From contig JAODAX010000064.1 in the NCBI GenBank assembly GCA_025463675.1, positions 1 to 50,793 on the forward strand: a DNA stretch of 50,793 nt. The letters are read 5' to 3'. Below the pieces are notes generated by a model that did no database searches, was not told the DNA's origin, and saw nothing but the letters and a program-made list of their open reading frames with translations. A program made the position numbers and the translations under genes. Shown here piece after piece: positions 7,546-16,714 of the stretch. This DNA comes from Naasia sp. GTDB lineage: Bacteria; Actinomycetota; Actinomycetes; Actinomycetales; Microbacteriaceae. Numbering within the stretch: the stretch's first letter is position 1; every line of letters begins with the position of its first letter.

Positions 7546-8355
7546 GACACCGACGCTACCCGAGCCCCCTCGTCGCACCTCCGGGCGGAGCCGCCGGCGC
7601 CACCGGTCGGGCGGGTACTCGGCCGGCCAGTGCAGGGTGATCGAGCGCATGCCCCGGCGGAATCGCCGGGCGAGGGCCGCCCTGTCGGTGAACGGCCGCG
7701 CGGAGATGCCGACCCGCAGCGAGCTGACCCAGCGGATGCGCCGCTCCGGGCCGAGGTGCACGCTCAGGTCGAGGTCGTCGTGCACCTCCGGATCGTTCCG
7801 GTGCACGTCCGCTCGGACGGCGATCCACGCCTCGCGGTGCATGCCGAAGTTCGAGCCGAAGAGGGGGGCATGGCCGAGCGCGAGACCGGTCGTGGCGGCG
7901 TACGCGCCGAGGTACAGCGAGCAGAGCAGGCGCGACAGGGGCGCCAGGCGCGTCGGCAGGTCGTAGAACTGCGCCGACCCGCTCACCGCCGCGACGGCGG
8001 GGTCGTCGAGCAGCCGGGCGAGCCGGTGCACCCAGTCGGGCGGCAGTCGGCTGTCGGCGTCGCAGCGGAGGATCAGGTCGCCGGTGGCGGCGTCGTAGCC
8101 GGCCGAGGCCGCCGCCGGGATGCCGGGGCGGAGCTCCTCGACGACGCGGGCGCCGCCCGCTGCCGCGACCGCCGCGCTGTCGTCGGTGCTGCCGTTGTCG
8201 ACGACGACGATCTCGTCCGGGAGCCGGGTCTGCCGGGCGAGATCCCGCAGGCAGCGCGCGAGGTGCGCGGCGTCGTCCTTGACGGGGATCACGACCGAGA
8301 CCGTCCGGGACTCGCGCATCGCGGCGAGGCGGGGGTGTGTCAGCGATTCGGCCAC
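7105..8355 (-). CDS. Glycosyltransferase family 2 fused in frame to a Ddn-type F420-dependent oxidoreductase
   Basis: One uninterrupted frame holds two enzymes. The first part, to about residue 270, is a GT-A glycosyltransferase: [28 protein letters not shown] as the DXD-like metal site, and a basic C-terminal [10 protein letters not shown]. The second part (7105-7545) is a complete nitroreductase-like deazaflavin oxidoreductase of 146 residues, beginning [14 protein letters not shown] and containing [16 protein letters not shown] and [15 protein letters not shown]. No stop separates them, yet each half has the normal length of an independent protein. The GTG at 8355 is preferred; GATAGG lies 9 nt upstream, and TTG 8361 and ATG 8319 are alternatives. 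The 3' end overlaps the convergent kinase gene by 20 bp. It may be a genuine fusion or a glycosyltransferase that lost its stop codon. Confidence 0.75.
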
Positions 8356-8432
8356 ACGCAAGTCCCTATCACGGCGCCGTGGCGCTACCTAACGTCGGAG
8401 GAGCCGCCCGGCCCCGACGAAATGGAGAATTC

Positions 8433-9314
8433 ATGTACTTCCACCGCCAAGAACTGCAGCACAAGTCGAAGCCCTCCAAGCCCGATGCGATCTTCGCGCG
8501 GCGGCTGCAGGAGGTCCTCGGCGGGCAGTACGGCGAGATCACGGTCGCGCTCCAGTACGGCTTCCAGGCCTGGAACTCGCACCTGCCCGGCAAGTACCGC
8601 GACCTGCTGTTCGGCATCGGCGCTGAGGAGATGGGCCACGTCGAGATGCTCGCGGTGATGATCGCCCAACTGCTCGAGAAGGCGCCGATCCCGGCCAGCG
8701 AGGATGCTGCGAAGTCCGACCCGGTGCTCGGCGCGGTGATGGGCGGGATGGACGTCCAGCACGCCATCGTCGCCGGCGCGGGGGCGCGTGCGGTCGACAG
8801 CAACGGGAACCCCTGGCAGGGCAGCTACATCACCTCGAGCGGCAACCTGCTCGCCGACTTCACCGCCAACGCGAACGCCGAGATGCAGGGCCGCGTGCAG
8901 GTCGCCCGGCTCTACCACATGACCGACGATCACGGCGTGCGCGATCTGCTGTCGTTCCTGCTCGCCCGGGACACGATGCACCAGAACCAGTGGATCCGCG
9001 CCGCGGAGGAGCTGCGCGCCGAAGGCTTCGAGGAGCTGCCCGTGCCGAGCAACTTCCCGATCTCGAAGGAGGAGCGGAGCGTGTCGTACCAGTACATCAA
9101 CTTCTCGGATGGCCAGGCCGCCAGCGAGGGCACCTGGGCGAGCGGCCCCACCCCGGACGGGCACGGCCAGTTCAGTTACGTGGCCGAGCCGCCCAAGGGC
9201 GTGCCGATGCCGCCCGCCACTCAGCCGGACGGCCGCTTCTACGGCACCACCGCGAAGTCGAACACCGCGGAGAAGATCGGTGGCGCCATCAAGGACGCGG
9301 TCGAGAAGAAGTGA
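8433..9314 (+). CDS. Manganese catalase
   Basis: A 293-residue non-haem catalase that disproportionates hydrogen peroxide at a di-manganese centre. All five expected metal ligands are visible: Glu35 (GGQYGEI), Glu66 and His69 (GAEEMGHVEM), Glu150 (NANAEMQGR) and His183 (TMHQNQW). The length is normal for the family. The ATG at 8433 is preferred over an upstream ATG at 8337 because the family starts MYFHRQELQ and GGAGA lies just before it. The last 60 residues form the usual Gly/Pro-rich tail. It is divergent to the fused gene and followed by a strong hairpin terminator. Oxidative-stress function is established for the family; its regulation here is unknown. Confidence 0.95.
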   Translation: MYFHRQELQHKSKPSKPDAIFARRLQEVLGGQYGEITVALQYGFQAWNSHLPGKYRDLLFGIGAEEMGHVEMLAVMIAQLLEKAPIPASEDAAKSDPVLGAVMGGMDVQHAIVAGAGARAVDSNGNPWQGSYITSSGNLLADFTANANAEMQGRVQVARLYHMTDDHGVRDLLSFLLARDTMHQNQWIRAAEELRAEGFEELPVPSNFPISKEERSVSYQYINFSDGQAASEGTWASGPTPDGHGQFSYVAEPPKGVPMPPATQPDGRFYGTTAKSNTAEKIGGAIKDAVEKK

Positions 9315-9420: not shown

Positions 9421-9627
9421 TCAGGAAGCGGGGCGGATGTTCGACGCCTGGGGGCCCTTGGCGCCCGCAACGACCTCGAACTCGACGCGCTGGTTCTCCT
9501 CGAGCGAGCGGTAGCCGCGCGAGTCGATGGCCGAGTAGTGGGCGAAGACGTCGGCGCTGCCGTCGTCCGGGGCGATGAAGCCGAAGCCCTTTTCGGCGTT
9601 GAACCACTTCACGATGCCAGTAGGCAT
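9421..9627 (-). CDS. Cold shock protein, CspA family
   Basis: A 68-residue single OB-fold nucleic acid chaperone. The RNA-binding motifs KGFGFI (RNP1) and VFAHYS (RNP2) are intact, and the N-terminus [16 protein letters not shown] is typical. A longer frame exists upstream, but the ATG at 9627 matches the family start and has AAAGAGAG just before it. The preceding 360 bp without another gene leaves room for a long 5' leader, common in cold-shock mRNAs and often regulatory. The protein binds single-stranded RNA/DNA in the cytoplasm and limits secondary structure. Confidence 0.95.
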
Positions 9628-9989
9628 GTTGTCTCTCTTTCGATTTCTGATGTCCGGCGACGCAATCACGAGGCCTCTGTCACGCTGTCGAACTCCGCGC
9701 TCTCCGGAGCCGACCGGTGAACCCGGCGGACACGAGAAATGCAAGTACACAACACAACTGCGTTCCCCAGGCTACACCTGAGGCCGCATTCTCGGGGAGA
9801 GTCGGTTTTTCCCGCCGGTCCGGGAGCCCGGGGCTGACGGCGGCCCGTCGCGCGGCAGGCCGGGCGCGAGGGCGACCGGTGGGGCGCGCGGTCCTCCAAA
9901 AGGCGCGACACGCGCGTGTCGTGTCCCCCATCCGGATTTTCGTTGGCATGCTTCCGAGCACCGGCCGCCACCCAGGGAAGGTGAAAGAC
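9628..9989. promoter_or_regulatory. Divergent intergenic region of cspA and the FHA gene
   Basis: This 362-bp region has no supported gene. On the minus strand it should hold the cspA promoter and leader; A/T-richer sequence at 9735-9760 is a candidate. On the plus strand it should hold the promoter of the FHA gene. A perfect 16-bp palindrome, CGACACGCGCGTGTCG, lies at 9906-9921, about 70 bp before the FHA start, and could be a regulator site. No riboswitch consensus was recognised. Confidence 0.4.
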
Positions 9990-12058: not shown

Positions 12059-13528
12059 ATGAGCATTCCGCGACGCAGCTTCCTCGCCGGTGCGGCATCG
12101 GGACTGTCGATGCTGGTGCTCGCCGCGTGCACGCCGACCCCCCGCCCGCGGCCCACCGCGAGCACGCCGCTGCCCACGCCGACGACCGGCTTCGCGGTGC
12201 CGCGGCCCGCCGGGATGCTGCGCAGCGGGTGGACGGCCGACCCGTTCGCCCGCGGCGCCTCCAGCTTCGTCGCCGTCGGCTCCGCGCCGGAGCACCGCCA
12301 GACCCTCCGCGCCGCTCTCGACGACCGCATCTTCTTCGCGGGGGAGGCCACCTCCGACGATCAGCCGGGCACCGTCGCGGGGGCCCTGGACTCGGGCAGC
12401 CGCGCCGCCACCGAGGTGGAGACCCTCACCCGAGGCAGCGAGCGCATCGCCGTGATCGGCGCGGGTGCCGCCGGAGCGGCCGCCGCCCGTCGGCTCTTCG
12501 ACGCCGGCCACGCCGTGACCGTCCTGGAGGCCCGCGACAGGGTCGGCGGACGCATCTCCACCGTGCGCGACGATGAGTGGCCCGCGCCGATCGAGCTGGG
12601 CGCCGCCTGGGTCCGCGGCGGCGACGTGGAGAGCCTGTCCGCCCGGCTGGCGCGCCTCGGCGTCGCCACCGCGGCGTCTCCGACGGAGGACGGCGTGCTG
12701 CGGGTCACCCCGGACGGCGCCCTGGTCGACGGCTCCGGCGACGCCGCGGCGGCGGTCGACGAGGCGCTCGGCTGGGCCCGCGACCGCGCGGCCGACGTGT
12801 CGATCGCGGACGCGCTCACCGGCTCCGGTGCCGGGGAGGTGTCGGACGCGGGCGCGCCGTCGCCGGCGGCCCGGCTCGCCGCCGCGCTCCGCCTGGACCT
12901 CGGGCTGCCGGTCGGCGCGCCCGCCGAGGAGGCGTCCGCCTGGTACACCGACCCGGGGCCGGCCGTGTTCGCGGGCGAGCTCGTCCTCGGCGGCTACGAC
13001 GCCGTCGTCGCTGACCTCCTCGACGGGATCGACGTCTGGCTGGGCTCACCGGTGACGGGGCTCAGCTACAACGACAGCGGCGTGAGCGTCCGACTGTCGA
13101 CCGGCGAGGCGCTGAGTGTCGACCGCGTGGTCGTGACCGTGCCGCTCGGTGTGCTGAAGGACGAGGGGCTCCAGTTCGACCCGCCGCTGCCCTTCGCGAA
13201 GCGCGGCGCCATCGCCGAGCTCGGCGTCGGCGACCTGGAGACCGTCGCCCTGCGCTTCGACGAGCCGTTCTGGGACACCGACGCGATCGCCTGGAGCATC
13301 GTCGGCGACGCCGACTTCCCCGAGTGGGTGAACCTCGAGCCGCTGACCGGCGAGCCCGTGCTGCTCGGCCTCGTCGGCGCCGCCGCCGCCCGGGACTTCG
13401 CCGACCTCGACGACGCGGGCGTGCTGGAGCGGGCGTTGACGAGCCTTGCGGCGTTCGCCTCCGGGGACCGGTCCGGTGCGGGCACTACCGCGTCCTCTGG
13501 CGCCGACGCGCCGGCCGCCGGCGGCTGA
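12059..13528 (+). CDS. Tat-exported lipoprotein flavin amine oxidase, domain order apparently permuted
   Basis: A 489-residue flavoprotein of the monoamine/polyamine oxidase group. The N-terminus MSIPRRSFLAGAASGLS carries a twin-arginine signal plus a lipobox (LAAC, Cys24). Unusually, residues 57-120 hold the segment that normally ends these enzymes (GWTADPFARGASSF, then FFAGEATSDDQPGTVAGALD). The FAD Rossmann motif [15 protein letters not shown] with LEARDRVGGR, normally at the very start, comes after it at 131-165. The protein then stops after the central substrate domain, with a low-complexity tail and no second copy of the C-terminal motif. This suggests circular permutation. TAGGCT ends 9 nt before the ATG. 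The last 44 bp overlap the convergent gene. The substrate is unknown. Confidence 0.85.
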   Translation: MSIPRRSFLAGAASGLSMLVLAACTPTPRPRPTASTPLPTPTTGFAVPRPAGMLRSGWTADPFARGASSFVAVGSAPEHRQTLRAALDDRIFFAGEATSDDQPGTVAGALDSGSRAATEVETLTRGSERIAVIGAGAAGAAAARRLFDAGHAVTVLEARDRVGGRISTVRDDEWPAPIELGAAWVRGGDVESLSARLARLGVATAASPTEDGVLRVTPDGALVDGSGDAAAAVDEALGWARDRAADVSIADALTGSGAGEVSDAGAPSPAARLAAALRLDLGLPVGAPAEEASAWYTDPGPAVFAGELVLGGYDAVVADLLDGIDVWLGSPVTGLSYNDSGVSVRLSTGEALSVDRVVVTVPLGVLKDEGLQFDPPLPFAKRGAIAELGVGDLETVALRFDEPFWDTDAIAWSIVGDADFPEWVNLEPLTGEPVLLGLVGAAAARDFADLDDAGVLERALTSLAAFASGDRSGAGTTASSGADAPAAGG

Positions 13529-14228
13529 GCAGCAGCAGCAGCAGCACGTGCAGGACCCCGGGGCCGTGGTCGAGGGCCGCGGGAGCGCGCGGCAGATCCC
13601 GCTCGGCCAGCGGCGGCGTCCGGCTCGCCGCGACCAGTCCGGCCCCGACGCCCGCGAACAGCGCGAGCGCACCGACCGAGTAGGCGAGGAAGGACCACGG
13701 GTAGCCGGCCTGAGCGGGGTCGAGGAAGAAGTACGGGTACCAGCCGACGATGCGGCCGCGGACGATCGTCGCGAGCCCCCACGCGACCGGGTAGGCCAGC
13801 ACGAGGGGGACGACCCGCCAGCGCACCGTCCGCCGCCCCGGCGTCACCAGCCAGTCGATGAGCGCGAACGTGGGCAGGAAGAAGTGCAGCACCTGGTCGG
13901 AGGGCGGCACCTCCAGCCGGTAGCCCTGGGCCGGCGCGCCGGTCGCGAGCAGCGCGAACACGATGCCGGCGACGAGCAGGTAGCAGGTGACGACCGCACG
14001 AGCCGTGGACAGCGCTGCGGTTTCGGGCCGGCCCCGTAGCAGAGCGACGCCGGAGCAGGCCCACACCACCACGGCCGCGAGGTTGCTCTGCACGGTCAGG
14101 TAGCCGAAGAAGTCGACCCAGGCGAAACTGCGGAAGCCGAACCCGTAGAGGAAGCGCGCCACGAGCGCGCCGAGCCCGATCGCGGCGAAGGCGAGGCGCG
14201 TGAAACCGATCGCGGTGCGCACCCCCAT
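13485..14228 (-). CDS. Pr6Pr-like integral membrane protein
   Basis: A 247-residue protein with about six hydrophobic segments (GFTRLAFAAIGLGALVARFL, FFGYLTVQSNLAAVVVWACS and others). The motifs FFGYLTVQSN and HFFLPTFALIDWL, with the intramembrane Asp, recall the FAR-17a/AIG1-like Pr6Pr family of actinobacterial membrane proteins, whose role is not established. The ATG at 14228 is preferred: GAGGGG lies 3 nt upstream, and the longer frame adds 114 unrelated residues. The C-terminus is basic (RRRRPARRRQRTR). Its 3' end overlaps the convergent oxidase gene by 44 bp. Confidence 0.75.
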   Translation of the reverse strand: MGVRTAIGFTRLAFAAIGLGALVARFLYGFGFRSFAWVDFFGYLTVQSNLAAVVVWACSGVALLRGRPETAALSTARAVVTCYLLVAGIVFALLATGAPAQGYRLEVPPSDQVLHFFLPTFALIDWLVTPGRRTVRWRVVPLVLAYPVAWGLATIVRGRIVGWYPYFFLDPAQAGYPWSFLAYSVGALALFAGVGAGLVAASRTPPLAERDLPRAPAALDHGPGVLHVLLLLLLSRRRPARRRQRTR

Positions 14229-14692: not shown

Positions 14693-16714
14693 ATGACCGC
14701 GCAGGACGCGCGGCCGGCCACCCCGGCGCCGGAGTCCCCGCCGTCGGCGAACCAGCAGTCGACTCGTGCCGGCGTCGCGCTGCTCGCCGCGATCCCGCTC
14801 GCGATCGTCGTGGCGCTCGCCGCGATGGCGGGCAGCGGCGCGTTCGGCGCCCACCTCGTCGACTCCGGCCCGCTCGTGACCTGGGGGCTGCCCATTGCGC
14901 GGGTCGTCGCGGACGGCGCCGCGGCGCTCACCGTCGGCGTGCTCGTGCTCGCGGTGTTCGCCCTGCCGGGCGAGGCCGGCGACCCGCGGCTGCCCGGGGT
15001 CGCCCAGCGAGCGGCCCTGCGGATCGCCGCGGTGGCGAGCGCGGTCTGGCTCGCGGCCGGCGCGGCCGTGCTCGCGCTGACCGCCGCCGCGGTGCTCGGC
15101 ACGGCGGACGGGCTGCCCGGCGTCCTCCCGGCCTTCGTTGCCCGCACCGAGCTGGGCGCAAACTCGGTCGTGTCCCTCGCCCTCGTCGCCGCCGTGCTCG
15201 CCCTCACCCTGCTCTCCCCGCGCACCGCCTGGGTCGCTGTCGCCGGCGTGCTCGCCGTCGCGGCACTCCTGCCGCTCGCCCTGAACGGCCATGCGGCCGG
15301 CGCGCTCGAGCACGGCAACGCGGTCAGCAGCCTCGCCGTGCACCTGATCGGCGTCTCCGCCTGGACGGGCGGGCTGGTGGGCCTCATCCTGCTGCGTCGC
15401 CCCCTCGGCGGCGGCCTCGCCGCGGCCGCGCGCCGCTACTCCACGCTCGCGGCGTGGGCGTTCGGCGCGGTCGCCTTCTCGGGCGTCGTCAACGCCTCGC
15501 TGCGGCTCGCGGGGCCGGAGGACCTGCTCACCGGCTACGGGCTGCTCGTGCTCGCCAAGGCGGGGCTCCTCGTCGCGCTCGGCGTCGCGGGCGCCGCGCA
15601 GCGCCGGCGGATCCTGCCGCGGTTCGAGCGCGACGGCCCGCGCGCGTTCCTCCGCCTCGCCGCCACCGAGATCGTCGTGCTCGCCGCCGCGATGGGGCTC
15701 TCGGTCGCGCTGTCCCGCTCGGCGCCGCCCATCCCCGAAGAAGCGGCGGGGGACCGGTTCGCGGCGCTCGTCGGCTACGCGGAGCCGCCACCCGTGACGC
15801 CGCTTCGGATGCTCACCGAGTGGCATGTCGACTGGGCCTTCCTCGGCCTCGCCGGCATCCTGATCGGGGCATATCTCGCCGGCGTGGTGAAGCTCCGCCG
15901 CCGCGGCGACGCGTGGCCGCTGCGGCGGACCGTGCCCTGGGTCCTCGGCTGCCTCGGCCTCGTCTACGTCACGAGCGGCGGTCCCGGCGCCTACGGGCCA
16001 ACCAGCTTCAGCACCCACATGCTCCAGCACATGGGGCTCATGATGTTCCTGCCGCCCCTGCTCGTCCTCGGCGCGCCGATCCTGCTCGCGATGCGGGCGC
16101 TGCCCGCCCGCCGGGACGGCAGCCGCGGCATCCGCGAGTGGCTGCTTGTGCTCGTGCACTCACGAGTGGCGGCGTTCTTCTCCTTCCCGGTCGTCGCCGC
16201 CGTCATCTTCGCCGGCAGCCTCGTCGCCTTCTACTACACGCCGTGGTTCGAGTTCTCGCTGCGCGAGCACACCGGGCACCTGCTGATGGTGCTGCACTTC
16301 CTCCTCGGCGGGTACCTCTTCTATTGGGTGCTGATCGGCGAGGACCCCGGCCCCAACCGTCCGGCGCCGCCCTTCCGGCTGATCGTGCTGCTCGCCACCC
16401 TCGCCTTCCACGCGTTCTTCGGTCTGGCCCTCATGTCGCAGAGCGACGTGCTCGCCATTGACTGGTGGCGCGCCCTCGGGGCGACCGACGCCGCGGCGCT
16501 GCTCGACGACCAGCGGGCCGGCGGCGGTCTCGCCTGGGGTGCGGGGGAGGTGCCCACCGTTCTCGTGGCGCTCGTCGTGGTGCGTCAGTGGATCCGCAGC
16601 GACGCCCGCCAGGCCCGCCGGTCCGACCGGGCGGCCGCTCGCGACGGCGACGCCGAGCTGACCGCATACAACGCCCGCCTGGCGGCGCTCGCGAAGCGCG
16701 ACGGACGCGGCTAA
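14693..16714 (+). CDS. CopD-CtaG fusion: copper transport / cytochrome c oxidase assembly membrane protein
   Basis: A 673-residue polytopic protein. The first half (about 20-330) resembles CopD, a copper-import membrane domain, with GHAAGALEHGNAVSSLAVHL and SAWTGGLVGLI carrying His and Trp near membrane faces. The second half (about 370-620) matches the caa3-type CtaG family: MLTEWHVDWAFLG, STHMLQHMGLMMFLPPLLVL and YYTPWFEFSLREHTGHLLM, with conserved His residues likely to handle copper for oxidase assembly. The fusion is common in actinobacteria. TAGCCT lies 18 nt before the ATG. The basic C-terminus is cytoplasmic. It is followed by a nested palindrome that may end transcription. Confidence 0.9.
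   Translation: MTAQDARPATPAPESPPSANQQSTRAGVALLAAIPLAIVVALAAMAGSGAFGAHLVDSGPLVTWGLPIARVVADGAAALTVGVLVLAVFALPGEAGDPRLPGVAQRAALRIAAVASAVWLAAGAAVLALTAAAVLGTADGLPGVLPAFVARTELGANSVVSLALVAAVLALTLLSPRTAWVAVAGVLAVAALLPLALNGHAAGALEHGNAVSSLAVHLIGVSAWTGGLVGLILLRRPLGGGLAAAARRYSTLAAWAFGAVAFSGVVNASLRLAGPEDLLTGYGLLVLAKAGLLVALGVAGAAQRRRILPRFERDGPRAFLRLAATEIVVLAAAMGLSVALSRSAPPIPEEAAGDRFAALVGYAEPPPVTPLRMLTEWHVDWAFLGLAGILIGAYLAGVVKLRRRGDAWPLRRTVPWVLGCLGLVYVTSGGPGAYGPTSFSTHMLQHMGLMMFLPPLLVLGAPILLAMRALPARRDGSRGIREWLLVLVHSRVAAFFSFPVVAAVIFAGSLVAFYYTPWFEFSLREHTGHLLMVLHFLLGGYLFYWVLIGEDPGPNRPAPPFRLIVLLATLAFHAFFGLALMSQSDVLAIDWWRALGATDAAALLDDQRAGGGLAWGAGEVPTVLVALVVVRQWIRSDARQARRSDRAAARDGDAELTAYNARLAALAKRDGRG

Follow-up and report, generated by a model that had tools for sequence, protein, structure and literature searches.

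The window, by which we mean the whole stretch of 50,793 nucleotides of Naasia sp. DNA that was analysed, contains a gene for a flavin amine oxidase whose amine-oxidase domain is present almost in full, with its two parts in reversed order (Table 1). Flavin amine oxidases, including MAO, LSD1 and the polyamine oxidases, are a much-studied superfamily. The gene lies tail-to-tail with that of a Pr6Pr-family membrane protein, and the 3' ends of the two overlap by 44 bp. Of 14 chosen loci of the family, covering 12 genera, 13 have a convergent Pr6Pr homologue next to the permuted oxidase (the exception is L210), and overlapping 3' ends recur in some of the loci L199-L212. The homologue was not found in five loci from outside the family (L214-L218), and no naming of Pr6Pr was found in the literature searched. 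On the other side, a manganese catalase gene lies less than 3 kb upstream of this putative peroxide-producing enzyme; it was matched only in the same-genus loci L199 and L212 among 19 loci compared. The FKBP-type isomerase gene upstream of the oxidase is divergent from it, and its product appears lipoprotein-like by eye.

Table 1. Features of the oxidase locus, with positions in the window
Feature	Position	Strand	Basis
Circularly permuted flavin amine oxidase, 489 aa	12059..13528	+	ORF from ATG to stop; PF01593 match
Putative twin-arginine signal with lipobox (MSIPRRSFLAGAASGLSMLVLAAC), residues 1-24	12059..12130	+	Sequence motif
Pro/Thr-rich tether from lipobox Cys to enzyme, residues 25-46	12131..12196	+	Sequence; pLDDT <50 to residue 43
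Moved segment, normally the C-terminal piece of the FAD domain (PF01593 367-442), residues 47-120	12197..12418	+	Profile; LSD2 alignment
Short linker from old C-terminal end to old N-terminal end, residues 121-127	12419..12439	+	Model; HMM gaps
FAD-binding N-terminal part and substrate domain (PF01593 2-364), residues 128-466	12440..13456	+	Profile; VIA-align to LSD2
Pr6Pr-family membrane protein, 247 aa from chosen ATG	13485..14228	-	NF038065, E=5.3e-34
Manganese catalase	8283-9311	+	PF05067, E 4.3e-97
Cold-shock-like protein	9421-9750	-	Recognised by eye
FKBP-type peptidyl-prolyl isomerase, two FKBP_C stretches	10970 to about 11950	-	Pfam
CopD domain, then CtaG cytochrome oxidase assembly domain, one ORF	14693-16714	+	Pfam

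A rotated amine-oxidase domain

The protein belongs to the Pfam family Amino_oxidase (PF01593), which it matches in two stretches with E=4.3e-59 and 201.4 bits against a gathering cut-off of 19.8; it carries the GxGxxG and GGR motifs and the characteristic C-terminal segment (W..DP, FAGE, SG). In a profile search of its own genome, the downstream stretch (12470-13456) corresponded to profile positions 2-364 (E=3.4e-43) and the upstream stretch (12191-12418) to positions 367-442 of 443 (E=6.8e-16). On this contig the profile is covered once, in rotated order, and the other PF01593 matches of the genome are located on other contigs. With no part present twice and hardly any part absent, this pattern is the signature of a circular permutation. 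Sequence alignment to LSD2 (4gu0) gave the same picture, pairing residues 128-464 with 337-692 and residues 47-120 with 700-773.

The canonical chain of MAO, PAO and LSD1 begins with the FAD-binding start and ends with the W..DP/FAGE segment, whereas here W..DPFARG, FFAGEATS and GTVAGALDSG all lie in residues 47-120 and the FAD-binding start (GAGAAG ... EARDRVGGR) appears only after them, from residue 128. A short linker connects the former ends, as expected of a natural circular permutant, and across 77 distinct permuted proteins the gap between the two HMM matches is 4-10 residues (median 6). The permuted order proposed in the first-pass annotation is thereby borne out.

Among known enzymes, the amine-oxidase domain of LSD1 and LSD2 (KDM1) is the best match by both sequence (E 7.4e-40) and fold, and consists of the same set of segments. 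The Naasia chain differs in being rotated, bacterial and equipped with a putative export signal, and there is no reason to infer a histone substrate. Maize PAO (1b37), yeast Fms1 and a bacterial monoamine oxidase (8p84) resemble it in fold (Z about 23) and match its sequence in two stretches, but they keep the canonical order, so that residues 52-124 of the query correspond to their C-terminal end (for instance, Fms1 434-507). Saposins and DNA methyltransferases, to judge from titles in the reference list of PMC2213659, are natural circular permutants with one domain rotated likewise, though in other folds. No description of a natural circular permutant of flavin amine oxidases was found among the listed matches in open-licence PMC, judged by titles and the starts of abstracts, a scope that makes this absence weak evidence.

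Distribution and origin of the rotated form

A search of close relatives had been proposed along with the permuted order, and it returned the same arrangement throughout the genus and far beyond it. A homologue at 1e-30 or better is present in all nine genomes of the genus (the Naasia genome included), eight of them over full length, and all nine homologues were classified as permuted. One of these genomes (G008) carries a second, weaker match (L012) in canonical order. In another (G001), the permuted oxidase L011 has its 5' part in a different frame, which points to a pseudogene or a sequencing error. The first-pass annotation had named relatives with a complete C-terminal copy, lost here only by a frameshift, as one of two findings that would overturn the permutation. 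Frameshifting is no explanation, since eight other genomes of the genus carry the permuted homologue, and a second copy of the moved segment occurs in none of 172 classified ORFs (89 permuted and 83 canonical rows, duplicates included, in a set without L219-L251).

Among 36 loci from named genomes, one was permuted (L013, Leifsonia sp. Leaf264), 32 were canonical and three were unclassified (L016, L033, L047). A junction query made of residues 45-188 was then run on 398 genomes of the same family (85 genera), where it found a match at 1e-8 in 261. This family is probably Microbacteriaceae, since the hit in the genome of L013, a Leifsonia, has practically the same contig position as that in the family member G217. 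By hand count, at least 133 of the 398 genomes, from 31 of the 85 genera, show a strong match that spans the join (about 1e-23 or better); part of these loci were classified individually, and the order in the rest was read from the single join-crossing match. Three of the 133 matches are shorter (G001, 42-143; G371, 29-140; G285, 3-128). Near misses were kept out of the count, namely G020 (query 5-110), G312 (3-104, with stops inside), G194 (3-97, with stops inside) and G219 (3-134, with two stops).

The wider spread was followed by profile searches and an order classifier that used one HMM for the moved segment and another for the FAD segment. The same order of segments was found in families f15 and f16 of the same taxonomic order (two genomes each), in f35, f37, f43, f48, f51 and f54 of the same class, in three families from other classes within the phylum, f72, f80 and f82 (four of 296 genomes), and in three of 200 genomes of Pseudomonadota, the phylum of a Bradyrhizobium. 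These genome counts are lower bounds, drawn from samples of genomes in which some of the first-look candidates were scored per genome. In the phyla of a cyanobacterium and of a Bacteroidota genome, a join-crossing match was found in none of 108 and 109 genomes, respectively; eight genomes in each match one or both halves only, at loci left unclassified. No permuted relative was found on viral contigs in a scan reaching close relatives only, and plasmids gave no tblastn match at 1e-20.

The canonical order is the commoner one. Across 60 genomes of the class, almost every PF01593 match listed at 1e-40 reaches the end of the profile, and those that stop at positions 364-366 among the matches listed are the Naasia gene itself and a permuted protein from G810. 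Many actinobacteria and a few proteobacteria share the rotation, which makes it a real, long-kept variant of an enzyme that is itself very common, rather than an accident of one genome. Far from being a peculiarity of the Naasia genome, the arrangement marks a widespread clade or set of clades: a well-known enzyme fold has here undergone a natural circular permutation that has persisted for long and spread widely.

Trees built on rotated cores show the permuted proteins as a few blocks interspersed with canonical proteins, and require three changes of order (77 rows, quick tree), three (57 rows, careful tree) or four (51 rows, careful tree). The rows of the 57- and 51-row trees were thinned by hand, with far canonical rows dropped beforehand. 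Not one of the 200 bootstrap trees of either careful run united all permuted rows in one clade. In AU tests, a single clade was not rejected for the 57-row set (p=0.237), was borderline when the Pseudomonadota rows L219-L221 were included (p=0.041), and was again not rejected when L219 was removed (p=0.092). L219, a permuted protein from Pseudomonadota, groups with the canonical L168 (support 97/88) and is a candidate for an independent permutation. The results fit two histories: either one ancient origin followed by transfers or reversions, or at least two independent origins at the same loop. It is also conceivable, though we think it rather improbable, that the rotation arose more than once at that loop (in the main actinobacterial lineage and in that of L219) as a repeated adaptation to surface anchoring; the N-terminal end, moved to the side of the substrate domain, would then let a Tat signal or lipid tether hold the enzyme while leaving the FAD-binding strand undisturbed.

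Export signal, conserved residues and predicted fold

The N-terminus carries a twin-arginine motif (RRSFL, residues 5-9), a hydrophobic core and a lipobox (LAAC, residues 21-24) with its cysteine, and these motifs support the earlier proposal that the protein is exported as a Tat lipoprotein. The accompanying view that a Tat signal combined with a lipobox is unusual did not hold among its relatives: the combination is the rule for permuted proteins, at 57 of 73 in a sample mostly from one family. With nine further proteins carrying an AxA site, a motif script counted 66 of these 73 distinct proteins as having a Tat-type signal with either a cleavage site or a lipobox; two had the RR motif only and five had no signal. 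For canonical proteins the corresponding count was 13 of 71 (four lipobox, nine AxA), with six RR only and 52 without a signal. One protein (L090) was scored Tat+AxA by the script and Tat+lipobox by eye; the script counts were kept. Nevertheless, Tat export and permutation cannot be called statistically linked, as the trees offer only two independent pairs on starred branches and four on all branches, and there is no significance once ancestry is accounted for.

Of the four f15 and f16 proteins, three lack a signal and one has RR only; none was seen in the f35 protein L105 or in the Pseudomonadota proteins L220 and L221, and the f16 protein L101 starts, by eye, a few residues before the W..DP strand. 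The permuted proteins L100-L103, L220 and L221, which lack a clear export signal, have in common a W-L-Q-Q motif across two phyla and are likely to form a cytosolic subfamily.

The FAD motifs are conserved. Each of the 72 permuted rows has the three glycines of GxGxxG, the arginine of GGR and the glutamate of GE, and 70 of 72 have the tryptophan of W..DP, the other two being gaps. Within the moved segment, 26 aligned rows have invariant W, R, G and E columns. The lysine of the VPLGVLK loop, a candidate for the flavin-N5 lysine, is present in the query. Its column, which is unreliable, holds K in 40 of 72 permuted rows (Q in 20, R in 6, A in 5, S in 1) and K in 10 of 71 canonical rows with 25 gaps, and hence provides no safe test.

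Structure prediction without an alignment reached a pLDDT of 36.7. With an alignment of 31 rows, comprising the query and L013 (both permuted), 23 canonical N-part and six C-part fragments, AlphaFold2 produced a model with a mean pLDDT of 80.0 and a pTM of 0.81. One canonical fragment row of this alignment (L020) begins out of register. Two other folding alignments were dropped because MAFFT had placed canonical fragments against the wrong segment, a shift that is avoided with fewer C fragments. Ten-residue mean pLDDT values are 81-96 for residues 51-130 and fall to 55-74 for residues 221-310, while the stretches of at least three residues below 50 are 1-43 and 475-489. The model suggests how the old ends may be joined, with a helix (106-123), a turn of a few residues and a strand (129-133).

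Foldseek and VIA-align retrieved LSD2, LSD1, maize PAO and bacterial MAO as relatives of the predicted fold, with a Foldseek TM by query of 0.60 for 4fwf. VIA-align superposed model residues 121-470 on LSD2 (4fwe; Z 25.9, rmsd 2.9 Å, 336 residues) and residues 128-470 on positions 5-380 of the 459-residue chain of maize polyamine oxidase (1b37; Z 23.8). Foldseek aligns in chain order. Its rows aside, those of VIA-align span model residues 121-471, so that residues 47-120 and the C-terminal parts of the targets have no partner, as would be expected if aligners keep chain order. The other refuting finding named in the first-pass annotation was a model in which residues 50-125 fail to pack into the FAD domain. 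Residues 51-130 are confidently modelled within a confident overall fold; the structural alignments lie outside the moved segment and show its place at most indirectly. Since only two of the 31 rows are permuted, the modelled contacts between the moved segment and the rest of the protein depend on AlphaFold2's prior knowledge of the fold.

A putative surface-anchored oxidase and its alternatives

Taken together, the best explanation of this gene is, with high probability, a flavin amine oxidase that is circularly permuted, functional and anchored at the cell surface. The segment order, with its conservation and distribution, is observed directly; the export signals are known from motifs, and the fold, FAD binding, catalysis, substrate and acceptor are inferred. 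The cut that opened the chain would lie in the loop leading from the final helix of the substrate domain to the W..DP strand, and a few linker residues would connect the former ends. The FAD domain would thus keep its pieces, arranged differently along the chain. The protein would fold with FAD in the cytoplasm, be exported by the Tat pathway, and be held outside the cell by a lipid anchor through the Pro/Thr-rich tether on its new N-terminal end. There it would most likely oxidise an external amine or amino compound, with reduction of the FAD, and O2 is the most likely electron acceptor.

The same rotated chain could instead work as a dehydrogenase, its reduced FAD passing electrons to a carrier in the membrane or outside the cell instead of to O2. 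NicA2- and Pnao-type amine oxidoreductases belong to the same superfamily and are likewise Tat-exported, but they are paired with cytochrome c, and the string 'permut' does not occur in the main text of the paper that describes them (PMC12224317). According to that source, a Tat-exported member may be an oxidase or a cytochrome c dehydrogenase, and the stronger predictor of a dehydrogenase is a cytochrome gene located next to it. Among tested members with a Tat signal and no such neighbour, most react readily with O2, with one exception. The CopD/CtaG gene nearby could speak for such a carrier, yet it was matched only in the same-genus loci L199 and L212 of the 19 compared, and no cytochrome c was found among six neighbouring ORFs scanned with Pfam. 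As an adjacent cytochrome is the stronger predictor and none occurs in those six ORFs, the surface-anchored oxidase is favoured, and we consider the dehydrogenase rather improbable.

Considerably less probable is a domain-swapped assembly, in which the moved segment would complete the FAD site of another subunit. Swapping could be favoured by the shortness of the linker, and the monomer model is compatible with it, but none of the results obtained speaks for it; against this assembly, the model is confident across the linker, with ten-residue means of 93-97 for residues 111-140. Least probable of these is that a partial tandem duplication left behind a truncated oxidase preceded by a non-functional piece: gene duplication has been suggested as a route to permutations (PMC2213659), but the front segment keeps its invariant columns, none of the 172 classified ORFs has a second copy of the segment, and the rotated form extends over 31 genera.

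For genome annotation this oxidase and its permuted relatives carry a warning, as linear profiles read rotated proteins as partial domains. The rotated form is also a starting point for tethered amine-oxidising biocatalysts. For the superfamily itself, its occurrence in two phyla constitutes a natural test of the chain orders that the FAD fold tolerates.
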